Of a DNA stretch of 64,000 nt, positions 17,508 to 45,125 are shown piece by piece (the first letter of the stretch is position 1; each line of letters starts with the position of its first letter). Source of the DNA: Actinomycetota bacterium. GTDB lineage: Bacteria > Actinomycetota > Acidimicrobiia > Spongiisociales > UBA5794. The notes under the pieces were generated by a model, which saw nothing but the letters and a program-made list of their open reading frames with translations, was not told the DNA's origin and made no database searches. Location: assembly GCA_013151445.1 (NCBI GenBank), contig JAADIG010000082.1, positions 1 through 64,000 of the forward strand, read 5' to 3'. The translations under genes and the position numbers were made by a program.

Positions 17508-18524
17508 TCAGGACCCGGTCGTTTCAAGGGCTCCGACGACATTGGCGACCGACCGCATATAGTCGACGATGCGGGGGCCCCACCGTGACGCTATATCGTC
17601 ATCGAGTACGACGACACGATTGTTCAACACGGCGCTGAGGCCGCCCCAACCGGCACGTTCAGCAACCGACTCCGGGGATGCGCCACAGCATTTCCCGTCG
17701 GCGAGAAAGATGAAGTCAGGGTTCCGGTCGAGGACCCACTCAGCGGAAAGCTGTGGAAATCCGAAACCGTCGATATCTGCTTCGTCCGCGATGTTGACGA
17801 GTCCAAGCGCGGAATACACTGTCCCGATGAATGTCGATGAAGTCGCTGAATACAAACTTGGATCCAGTTCGTGATAGTACGTCGGAGCATTCTCCAACTC
17901 CGGGAGGGTGGCAACGATGTCGGCAATATCCGTCTGCATCTGCGCCACCAACTCGGCGGCACCTCCAATATTCCCGGTGGCAGCACCGAGCTGCTCGATC
18001 TGGCTGTACACGTCGTCAAACGTGACCGCCGCGGGAGCCATCAGCACCGGTATGTCGAGCAGTGACAACGCTTCGAGAAGCCCATCCGGGTCCCCCGACG
18101 TCACCACAAGATCCGGCTCGTAGGAAGCAATGGCCTCAATATTCGGCTGCCACCCACTCAGGTCGGTGACAGGGGCCTGCGGCGGGTAGTAGGAGAACGA
18201 ATCGACAGCGACAACCTGGTCACCGGCGCCGATCGCGAAAAGCATTTCGGTCCCCGTCGGTGAGATCGAAACGATCCTGATCGGACGTTCGTCGAGTAGG
18301 ACGTTCCCGTTGGCAGCGACCACCGTGATCGGGAACCCGTCGTCGGGAACTTCCGTCGTCGTAGTCGGAGCGAGAGTCGTGGTCGGGGCGAGAGTCGTGG
18401 TCGGAGCGAGCGTTGTTGGGGTTGAGTCTTGGACGACTGGCGCCACGGTCGTGGCGCTGGTTCCTCCCCCGCATGCCGCAGCGACGAGCGCAAACGCGGC
18501 AATCAAGACAATGAGACGTTTCAT
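17508..18524 (-). CDS. btuF: cobalamin ABC transporter substrate-binding lipoprotein
   Basis: Lipobox [37 protein letters not shown]; downstream of a cobalamin riboswitch. Confidence 0.87.
   Translation of the reverse strand: MKRLIVLIAAFALVAAACGGGTSATTVAPVVQDSTPTTLAPTTTLAPTTTLAPTTTTEVPDDGFPITVVAANGNVLLDERPIRIVSISPTGTEMLFAIGAGDQVVAVDSFSYYPPQAPVTDLSGWQPNIEAIASYEPDLVVTSGDPDGLLEALSLLDIPVLMAPAAVTFDDVYSQIEQLGAATGNIGGAAELVAQMQTDIADIVATLPELENAPTYYHELDPSLYSATSSTFIGTVYSALGLVNIADEADIDGFGFPQLSAEWVLDRNPDFIFLADGKCCGASPESVAERAGWGGLSAVLNNRVVVLDDDIASRWGPRIVDYMRSVANVVGALETTGS
18369..18420. repeat. about three tandem 18-bp units encoding (TTLAPT)n linker in BtuF
   Basis: agagtcgtggtcggggcg / agagtcgtggtcggagcg / degenerate third unit; protein TTLAPTTTLAPTTTLAPTTTTEVP. 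Confidence 0.8.
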
Positions 18525-37816: not shown

Positions 37817-38170
37817 CTAATTGCGGCGACCGACACGGAGGCGAACTTTCGTGAATGGCAACGCACCCAACGTCGCCTCCAAGTCGTTTATCAGGGTCGC
37901 CGACTCGAATCGCAGCAGCGAGGCCACGGACCCGTTTTCGACCTCAACAATCAACGTGTCAGTATCGATCCGGACCGGCTGAGATCGCCCGGACCAACTC
38001 GGACCGGCGAGCTCTGGCCATGCGGTCTTGAGGTGGAGAAGCAGCCCGCCGGTGGTGCCCGCGATACGCGCAATGAGACCGTCGAGGACGTCACTTACGT
38101 TGATGAGGTCTCTCTTGTTCTTGTCATGCAAATACATACTCATGTGACGGTTCCTCCAGAAACCGACCAA
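37817..38170 (-). CDS. DUF721 (DciA-like) protein
   Basis: Position between gyrB and recF; DVLDGLIARIAG...VAWPELAGPSWSGRSQPVRI-like pattern; start uncertain (MSMYLHDKNKRD also possible). Confidence 0.7.
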   Translation of the reverse strand: MVGFWRNRHMSMYLHDKNKRDLINVSDVLDGLIARIAGTTGGLLLHLKTAWPELAGPSWSGRSQPVRIDTDTLIVEVENGSVASLLRFESATLINDLEATLGALPFTKVRLRVGRRN

Positions 38171-39248: not shown

Positions 39249-40328
39249 TTACAGACGAACCGGCATCAGCAGGTAACGGAAGTTCTCCTCACCCTCACCG
39301 TGCATGAGACCGGGTTTCAGAGGATCGGACGTATCCAATACGACATTGTCTGTGGTGATGGCCTGGACGCCGTCTGTGAGATATCGCGTGTTGAACGCAA
39401 TTGTCATTTCGTCGCCGGTGTAATCGCCCTCGATTTGCTCGGTCTCCTCGCCGACCTCCTGACGGCTAACCGAGAGTTCGGCGCCACCACTACGCAGGTG
39501 AAAACGAATCGGGATGTGATCTTCTGCGACGAGCGAAGCACGACTTACGGCATCAACAAGACTGGCCCTGTCGACGACCAGGCGGGCCGGGTAACTATCG
39601 GGAATCAGTTGACGATAGTTTGGGAAGGTCGCCTCGATGATTCGCACCGTAAGAGAACCACGCCCTGAGGTGAAGGTCGCATCGCGATCCGTAATCATGA
39701 CCTGCATCTCATCGTCCGCTATCGACCGACCCAGCTCCCGCAGAGCCCGGTACGGAATAAGTGCCGTTGCGGGTCCATCGACACCGGGCAGGTCACAAAC
39801 GGCAAGGCGATACGAATCTGTTGCGACAAGACGCAACCCATCATCGGTTTTCTCGAACAAAACACCCGTCAGCGTTGGCCGTGCTTCATCGGTAGATGCG
39901 GCAACTCCGACCTGGGAAAGTGCCTTGATGAAGGACTTCGAATCGACCGAGAAACCATCGCCGCCCTCACTGATGGAGAGCGTCGGAAAATCCTCAACAT
40001 TCATTTCACGAAGACGGAACCGGGGACCGTTGCCGGTGATCTCAACCTCACCGTCCGACGCCGTGATGGCGACTGCCCCGGACGGCAGCCTCTTGACAGC
40101 ATCCGCCGCGAGTTTGGCGGGAATTACGGTCTTGCCCTCCTCGAGCACCTCGACCTTGAGGGTCGTTCGAATGGTTATCTCAGTGTCAGTTCCGGTCACA
40201 CGAAGTTCGTCGCCGGACACCTCACACAACAGACCCTGAAGGATCGGAAGCGGGGACCGATTGCCCACGGCCCGCGCTGCTCGCGCCAACACGTCGGCAA
40301 GGTCATCTCTCTCAGCTCTGATACGCAC
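39249..40328 (-). CDS. dnaN: DNA polymerase III beta subunit (sliding clamp)
   Basis: MRIRAERDDLADVLARAARAVGNRSPLPILQGLL, C-terminal RYLLMPVRL. Confidence 0.97.
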   Translation of the reverse strand: MRIRAERDDLADVLARAARAVGNRSPLPILQGLLCEVSGDELRVTGTDTEITIRTTLKVEVLEEGKTVIPAKLAADAVKRLPSGAVAITASDGEVEITGNGPRFRLREMNVEDFPTLSISEGGDGFSVDSKSFIKALSQVGVAASTDEARPTLTGVLFEKTDDGLRLVATDSYRLAVCDLPGVDGPATALIPYRALRELGRSIADDEMQVMITDRDATFTSGRGSLTVRIIEATFPNYRQLIPDSYPARLVVDRASLVDAVSRASLVAEDHIPIRFHLRSGGAELSVSRQEVGEETEQIEGDYTGDEMTIAFNTRYLTDGVQAITTDNVVLDTSDPLKPGLMHGEGEENFRYLLMPVRL

Positions 40329-40514
40329 AGTTGTTCACCTGCTATTGCTTTATTAATTATCTAAGTTAGTAGTAGTTGTAGTAGGCCCTGTGGATTGTGG
40401 ATAAGTCCCCATATCCATTGTCACACCAGGGTTTTGTTGTACACATGGTGCCGTGGAGAAGTCATAGTTGTCCACTGCACCGCGGACTGGTGCGGGCTTT
40501 CCTGTGGAGAACAT
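40329..40514. other. oriC: dnaA-dnaN intergenic region, probable oriC unwinding site
   Basis: Perfect DnaA box TTATCCACA (rc) 40396-40404, overlapping CAATCCACA box 40389-40397, TTGTCCACT 40468-40476, TTCTCCACA (rc) 40503-40511, DnaA-trio-like TAG repeats 40367-40384 and AT-rich 40341-40366. Confidence 0.8.
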
Positions 40515-41954
40515 CTAACTTTTCCTCAGCTTCTGGGATAACGTTGTGATTTCGTCAAACACCGATTTGTCGCTGACGATGAGCCTCTTCACCTTTTCAA
40601 CGGCATGGAGCACCGTTGTGTGATCCCGACCACCGAAAGCCGTGCCAATCTTGGGGAGCGAGAGGTCGGTCAACTCGCGGCACAGGTACATGGCGATCTG
40701 TCGAGAGAGCGCAAGAGGCTGTTTACGAGAGGGACCGATCATCTCAAGCACCGTGAGACCAAAGTAGTTACACACAAGCTGGATGATGGAATCCGCTGTT
40801 AGAGCACGGTTCGAGTATTGCGGTGCAAGGTCGCTGAGCACGTCCTTCGCCATGTCGAGAGTGACGCGTTCGTGTGTCAGGGCGGCGAACGCTGCTACCC
40901 GAGTAAGTGCTCCCTCAAGTTCGCGGATATTGTCGAGGACGTTCTCGGCAATAAAACCAAGTACCTCGGTTGGCACCGATGCCGGAGCGTATTCAGCGTT
41001 CTTTCGCAAGATCGCAAGGCGGGTTTCAACATCCGGCGGTTGAATGTCGGTGAGAAGACCCCACTCGAAGCGGGAGCGCAGACGGGCCTCCAAGGAAGCC
41101 AAGTTCTTCGGATGCCGATCGGAACTGATCACCATCTGTTTCCCCGCTTCATACAGTGTGTTGAAGGTATGAAAGAACTCTTCGAGGATCTGCTCCTTCC
41201 CTTCAAAGAACTGCACGTCGTCGAGCAACAGAATGTCCGTTGTTCGGTAACGGGCCTTGAACTCATCCATCCTCTTGCGGCGGATACCGTTGATGAACTC
41301 GTTGAAGAACTGCTCCGATGTGATGTAACGAATTACCGCCGTCGGATCGAGTTCCTTACGGTGATGACCGACGGCGTGTAGGAGATGGGTTTTACCCAGA
41401 CCGGCAGGACCGTAGATGAACAAGGGGTTGTATTGCTTGCCCGGTTGCTCGGCAACGGCCATGGCGGCGGCGTGTGCGAACCGGTTCGATTGTCCGACGA
41501 CGAAATTATCGAAGTTGTATTTCGTAATCAGACGATGATCGTGTTGTCGGCCACCAGCGCCGGCGACCGCCGCTGGTGTCGTCGTTCCTCGTTGCGCCGG
41601 TTGAGTCTCGCGCGGTGCCGCTCCCACTGGAGGAGGAGGGGTGTCCGGTGCCGGGGCAACCTTGACGATCACCCGGGTGGTGTCATAGGTCGCCGCCGCT
41701 GCGGCTGAGATCACATCAAAGTATCGGTCGCGGACCCAGTGAGCATGGAACTCGGTCGGGGCTGTGAGATGGAGATCGTTTCCTTCGACGGTGACATCGA
41801 GGGGGAGGATCCAGGTTTGACAGGCAGCGTCCGGGATTGAGAGGGCGACCTGGTGCTGGAAAGCGTCCCATCGGGAGGTGGACTGTGTTGTCTCCACGTG
41901 TGTTGGTTTCTCCCTTGGCGAGTTGTCGATTTCTGTTGTCGATGTTGTCCACAC
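40515..41954 (-). CDS. dnaA: chromosomal replication initiator protein DnaA
   Basis: FIYGPAGLGKTHLLHAVGHH, LLLDDVQFFEGKEQILEEFFHTFN, C-terminal GGRDHTTVLHAVEKV; true start may be GTG at 41897. Confidence 0.97.
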   Translation of the reverse strand: MWTTSTTEIDNSPREKPTHVETTQSTSRWDAFQHQVALSIPDAACQTWILPLDVTVEGNDLHLTAPTEFHAHWVRDRYFDVISAAAAATYDTTRVIVKVAPAPDTPPPPVGAAPRETQPAQRGTTTPAAVAGAGGRQHDHRLITKYNFDNFVVGQSNRFAHAAAMAVAEQPGKQYNPLFIYGPAGLGKTHLLHAVGHHRKELDPTAVIRYITSEQFFNEFINGIRRKRMDEFKARYRTTDILLLDDVQFFEGKEQILEEFFHTFNTLYEAGKQMVISSDRHPKNLASLEARLRSRFEWGLLTDIQPPDVETRLAILRKNAEYAPASVPTEVLGFIAENVLDNIRELEGALTRVAAFAALTHERVTLDMAKDVLSDLAPQYSNRALTADSIIQLVCNYFGLTVLEMIGPSRKQPLALSRQIAMYLCRELTDLSLPKIGTAFGGRDHTTVLHAVEKVKRLIVSDKSVFDEITTLSQKLRKS

Positions 41955-42296
41955 TTCTATACACAGGTGTGGAAAACACGCGCGCTCTCCCCGCGAGGCA
42001 GATGCCTCGAACCAACATGTTCGGAAGTCATACGGAGGGGACCGCTTCTATCGCGGCGAGTATATGGGGTCCACTCCCCTGGTATCAAGAACGACAAATT
42101 CGACACTATTCCTAAACCTGCCACAGTTGCGAATTCCTGAAAACCGCCACTTTACAAGGGTTCTTGAGTAGTGAGTCGGTTGTCGACGATGTGTAGATGG
42201 CCAGAAAGTACCCGATTTTGGTCAAAGTAAAGTTTCGCGTTTGCTTTCGGGTTTTCGCGCTCTTGGCCGAAACACTGAATTCGCGTCGAAGTGTCT

Positions 42297-45065: not shown

Positions 45066-45081
45066 CGTTTCACGTGAAACA
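45066..45081. promoter_or_regulatory. parS: parS site 1
   Basis: cGTTTCACGTGAAACa; matches consensus TGTTTCACGTGAAACA with one outer mismatch. Confidence 0.95.
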
Positions 45082-45109: not shown

Positions 45110-45125
45110 GGTTTCACGTGAAACC
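45110..45125. promoter_or_regulatory. parS: parS site 2
   Basis: gGTTTCACGTGAAACc; perfect 16-bp palindrome with the conserved 14-bp core. Confidence 0.93.

Follow-up and report, generated by a model that had tools for sequence, protein, structure and literature searches.

A putative origin-unwinding element between dnaA and dnaN in an uncultured Acidimicrobiia bacterium, and departures from the DnaA-trio base rule in its class

A 60-base stretch between dnaA and dnaN is almost certainly where this uncultured actinobacterium of the class Acidimicrobiia first opens its chromosome for copying, as judged from its sequence and by analogy with Bacillus subtilis, and it can with high confidence be assigned as the core unwinding module (the basal unwinding system, BUS) of oriC. 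This would place the origin melting site for a lineage known almost only from metagenomes. The type of site was already known and the new part is solely a positional relaxation at repeats 3 and 4, where the published base rule is broken in about half of the species, a departure that is Acidimicrobiia-wide and not a quirk of one genome.

Anatomy and setting of the dnaA-dnaN element

The window, the whole 64-kb stretch of DNA that was analyzed, carries the element on its minus strand, where its sequence reads CTTATCCACAATCCACAGGGCCTACTACAACTACTACTAACTTAGATAATTAATAAAG. DnaA box 1, TTATCCACA (40404-40396), is a perfect consensus and the sole exact match in the window, and is overlapped by 2 nt by DnaA box 2, CAATCCACA (40397-40389), which has two mismatches. 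A GC-rich 4-nt spacer, GGGC (40388-40385), leads from box 2 to trio 1 and is followed by six triplets, CTA CTA CAA CTA CTA CTA (40384-40367). Trios 1 and 2 (40379-40384) are 3′-GAT-GAT-5′ on the plus strand, triplet 3 (40376-40378) is 3′-GTT-5′, with the first base retained and the middle adenine absent, and trios 4, 5, and 6 (40367-40375) are again CTA. The DNA that follows (40329-40366, minus strand), which is ~ 72% AT and also forms the dnaN leader, is the probable region of duplex unwinding. On the other side of the boxes, an upstream DnaA-box array of alternating orientation (40405-40528, minus strand) has members at 40437 R, 40452 F, 40468 R, 40503 F, and 40520 R (R being opposite to box 1), the last of which falls inside the 3′ end of dnaA. 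The initial annotation had quoted the minus-strand sequence exactly, with the perfect box, the overlapping box, the GC-rich spacer, the six triplets, and the AT-rich DNA in their places, and its coordinates, 40341-40404, were right to within a few bases. It had also counted six GAT-like trinucleotides, of which five stand; CAA, without the middle adenine that defines a trio, falls outside the published definition.

The flanking genes, identified by Pfam, are dnaA (initiator, 479 aa; 40515-41954, minus strand; Bac_DnaA 1.2e-69, Bac_DnaA_C, and DnaA_N) and dnaN (sliding clamp, 359 aa; 39249-40328, minus strand; DNA_pol3_beta domains), the latter starting with GTG at 40328. Gene order continues beyond dnaN with recF, dciA, and gyrB, and the opposite flank holds rpmH (named by its sequence), rnpA, a yidC-type insertase gene, rsmG, and parA. 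This neighborhood, rpmH-rnpA-yidC/dnaA-dnaN-recF-dciA-gyrB with parA and two parS-like sites, fits that of an origin. The parS-like palindromes, CGTTTCACGTGAAACA at 45066-45081 (one mismatch) and GGTTTCACGTGAAACC at 45110-45125 (two mismatches), directly precede rsmG-parA, ~ 4.7 kb from the putative melting site. The gene of the DciA family of replicative helicase loading factors (37817-38170, minus strand; PF05258 DciA, 2.5e-14) sits within the origin cluster, flanked by recF and gyrB. A further small cluster of DnaA boxes, TTGTCCACA, CTATACACA, and TTTTCCACA, lies at the dnaA start (41945-41976). It could serve dnaA autoregulation or form a second lobe of the origin like that of B. subtilis; because of this cluster upstream of dnaA, the origin is possibly bipartite.

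As the genome is split into 159 contigs, GC skew was judged over the 64-kb window. The cumulative minimum lies at 40361, 6 nt beyond trio 6, and a single change point fits best at 40.4-40.6 kb, with none of 1000 block permutations as good. Those 39-mers of the window with the highest AT content begin at 40342-40345. Within 40389-40511 there are six DnaA-box-like 9-mers (≤ 2 mismatches), and across the window boxes are densest in the 200-nt bin at 40401 (five vs. a mean of 0.41), so that the densest box bin, the AT-richest 39-mers, and the skew minimum coincide at the element. As stand-alone proof, the short pattern TCCACA-N4-CTACTA was rejected, as it occurs at chance level in the 3.07-Mb genome (two matches vs. 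three for the control), and the weight therefore rests on the whole arrangement and its place. The initial annotation had read the order of boxes, GC-rich DNA, and trios as an origin melting site, a reading that it staked on the position of the GC-skew minimum and on the conservation of the trios in close relatives. It is supported by the minimum within the element, by the gene context, and by the presence of the array in both genus mates and at the family, order, and class levels.

Comparison with published unwinding systems

The order and spacing of boxes, spacer, and trios are known from B. subtilis and other bacteria (PMC6669920; PMC8287927; PMC10721633). The published rule (PMC8287927) calls for a box with up to two mismatches and an optional second with up to four, and the boxes here have zero and two; it allows trios to start up to 16 bp from a box, and here they start 4 nt from box 2 and 11 nt from box 1. 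It also requires at least three consecutive 3′-NAN-5′ trios, with deviant trios foreseen and not shown. Trios 1-3 break this run at CAA, and only trios 4-6, at 13 nt from box 2, supply it. This counts against the BUS assignment, as the adjacent middle-adenine triple does not lie at the box-proximal end, which is essential in B. subtilis. The element is also located as expected of oriC, at the skew switch, between dnaA and dnaN, and with AT-rich DNA.

The BUS of B. subtilis oriC (incC) consists of DnaA-box#6/7 and six DnaA-trios. Like it, the element lies between dnaA and dnaN, where tandem boxes in the same direction are followed by a short GC-rich spacer, by six triplets that share one register and the same strand, and by AT-rich DNA. 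Unlike it, the boxes overlap by 2 nt and triplet 3 is without the middle adenine, although the first base is retained in all six triplets. The three TAG repeats of the Thermotoga maritima eTrio offer a further likeness, in that a repeated TAG serves single-strand binding (PMC10316083), but the box consensus is different, other sequence lies between the TAGs and the boxes, and there are only three repeats.

In the published definition, a trio is marked by its middle adenine, whose amino group touches Asn187, and in B. subtilis initiation suffers when G or T takes its place in trios 1-3 together. An alignment of the dnaA product with the B. subtilis BUS structure 8btg (E 8.7e-122) shows that the residues that hold the trios in the cryo-EM structure are mostly conserved in the DnaA of this lineage. 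Of the single-strand-binding and arginine-finger residues, the equivalents of N187, I190, I193, K222, E228, and R264 are present, as are those of E183 and E223, while K stands for both R202 and N196. Loss of the adenine-reading Asn from DnaA can be ruled out, with N187 present in 62 of 65 proteins; R202 is replaced by K in all 65. Changes in the class near the single-strand site comprise T186F/L, D195R, N196K, K197R, R202K, T225I, and Q226L, and we speculate that the extra basic residues could favor backbone binding over base reading.

From B. subtilis we infer how the element would work. DnaA would bind the overlapping box pair as duplex DNA, with the upstream box array assisting, and would then be loaded across the GGGC spacer onto the plus strand of the window, which is the 3′-GAT-5′ strand. 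Polymerization along the 3′-GAT-5′ triplets toward dnaN, at one triplet per protomer, would spread the opening into the AT-rich DNA ahead of dnaN, where the helicase would be loaded.

Conservation of the element and of individual trio bases

Eighty dnaA loci were collected, and dnaA-dnaN spacers were cut out by locating dnaN in each. Every one of the 67 Acidimicrobiia spacers has the box pair, short spacer, and CTA array in matching positions, with a box-trio distance of 4 nt in 56, 5 nt in 8, and 6-7 nt in 3, and the distance from trio 1 to the dnaN start is nearly fixed at 49-63 nt. In the spacers of the relatives L018 and L021, the array begins 7 nt past box 2 (GCACCAA) with the register of three retained, as if trio 1 had been turned into CAA. 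The box 2 core, TCCACA, is nearly invariant in the class, and of 40 class spacers with a comparable length (180-195 bp), 35 have an F box at the relative position of box 1. Upstream boxes recur at -48 R, -62 F, -79 R, -114 F, and -130 R from the box 2 end, each in about half of these 40 spacers, and the window element carries all five offsets to within 1 nt. Of the 395 genomes of the class, 140 matched a strict tandem-box and CTACTA pattern and none matched the reversed control pattern. Other Actinomycetota classes yielded only a handful of matches, an insufficient number for a comparison.

Trio 1 is CTA in 67/67 class spacers, and the middle adenine of trios 1-5 is kept in 67, 65, 36, 35, and 63 of them, counts that slightly favor trios 1-2 because the box-trio spacer was chosen for the most trio matches. 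A second count with spacer lengths of 3-5 nt, whose anchor pattern predetermines trio 1 and part of trio 2, gave the same picture for trios 3-5. Trios 1-3 all have the middle adenine in 34/67 spacers, and some in-range run of three middle-adenine trios is present in 48/67 compared to 25% in shuffles. Parsimony changes on the DnaA tree (first/middle/third base) numbered 0/0/0 for trio 1, 4/2/0 for trio 2, 0/12/3 for trio 3, 1/16/14 for trio 4, 4/4/2 for trio 5, and 13/11/20 for trio 6, indicating that in trios 3 and 4 the first base, the guanine of the bound strand, is held and almost never lost in the class, while the middle base is free. A class-wide pattern set, which partly overlaps the 67 spacers, agrees (trio 3 first base C in 120/125, middle T in 75/125). 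Clostridial BUS arrays (16 genomes) share the box pair, the 4-nt spacer, and the CTA array; in this small sample, selected by a comparable pattern, trio 4 keeps its middle base in 15/16 vs. 32/64 in Acidimicrobiia, and its first base is C in 8/16 vs. 63/64 (Fisher p = 4e-6, uncorrected for kinship).

Explanations for the array and its deviant triplets

A role of the CTA array as dnaN leader or DnaA-controlled regulatory site, with the origin at the boxes upstream of dnaA or at another place, is very improbable. The near-fixed distance to the dnaN start and the further boxes at 41945-41976 would suit such a role, but the skew minimum and the AT-richest DNA are both at the array, and the invariant box-spacer-trio order is that of the biochemically proven module. 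With the array taken as a melting site, the deviant triplets could reflect ordinary relaxation, in which the middle base beyond the first two trios is weakly selected and drifts to C, G, or A under composition pressure (~ 58% GC) with no special mechanism. We give this close to an even chance, since C is the commonest deviant base, other orders of the class are equally loose at trios 3, 4, and 5 (32, 32, and 36 of 55), and in Clostridia the drift is of the opposite kind, with the first base of trio 4 going from C to T. However, there is no gradient with distance, as trio 5 is again kept in 63/67, the first base of trios 3 and 4 changes zero and one times vs. 12 and 16 for the middle base, and A and G deviants are common too.

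A perfect CTA run might also slip in replication and be stabilized by an odd triplet. The three genus members have (CTA)2-CAA-(CTA)3, (CTA)3-CAA-(CTA)2, and (CTA)3-CCA-(CTA)3, differences that look like gain or loss of triplets on either side of a single odd one, and in 53/70 members of the order trio 3 or trio 4 is odd but not both (Fisher p = 2e-5, uncorrected for kinship). Such stabilization is unlikely, as a first- or third-base change would interrupt the run too and keep the adenine, as in Clostridia, and perfect (CTA)5-6 runs exist in Clostridia, L030, and L038. The proposed rule that exactly one of trios 3 and 4 deviates was itself rejected, as it is absent in other orders and not significant on the DnaA tree once kinship is counted (2.7 vs. 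0.3 independent pairs, p ~ 0.5).

In Acidimicrobiia, the filament apparently accepts the loss of the middle adenine from one or two triplets (positions 3 and 4) if the preceding guanine is kept. We tentatively suggest, as a possibility that falls short of an even chance, that the trios are read by position, with full 3′-GA-5′ capture at trios 1 and 2 (and at 5 in the order of the window) and guanine-only capture at 3 and 4, that the published adenine rule is not general, and that part of the 15% of origins without recognized trios are such arrays. If this position-dependent reading is true, the middle adenine is not the specificity base of every trio. The two groups form a natural contrast from which the needs of DnaA at each trio can be read, as Acidimicrobiia retain the guanine and leave the adenine free (trios 3 and 4) and Clostridia do the opposite (trio 4), and searches that demand three consecutive middle-adenine trios would misplace or miss real arrays.

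Searches of the 64-kb window for Rfam families and tRNAs found none. The gene of a probable substrate-binding lipoprotein, which adjoins an ABC-type uptake system, contains an 18-nt tandem repeat of 2.9 copies (18358-18410) in the part for its Thr/Pro-rich N-terminal linker.
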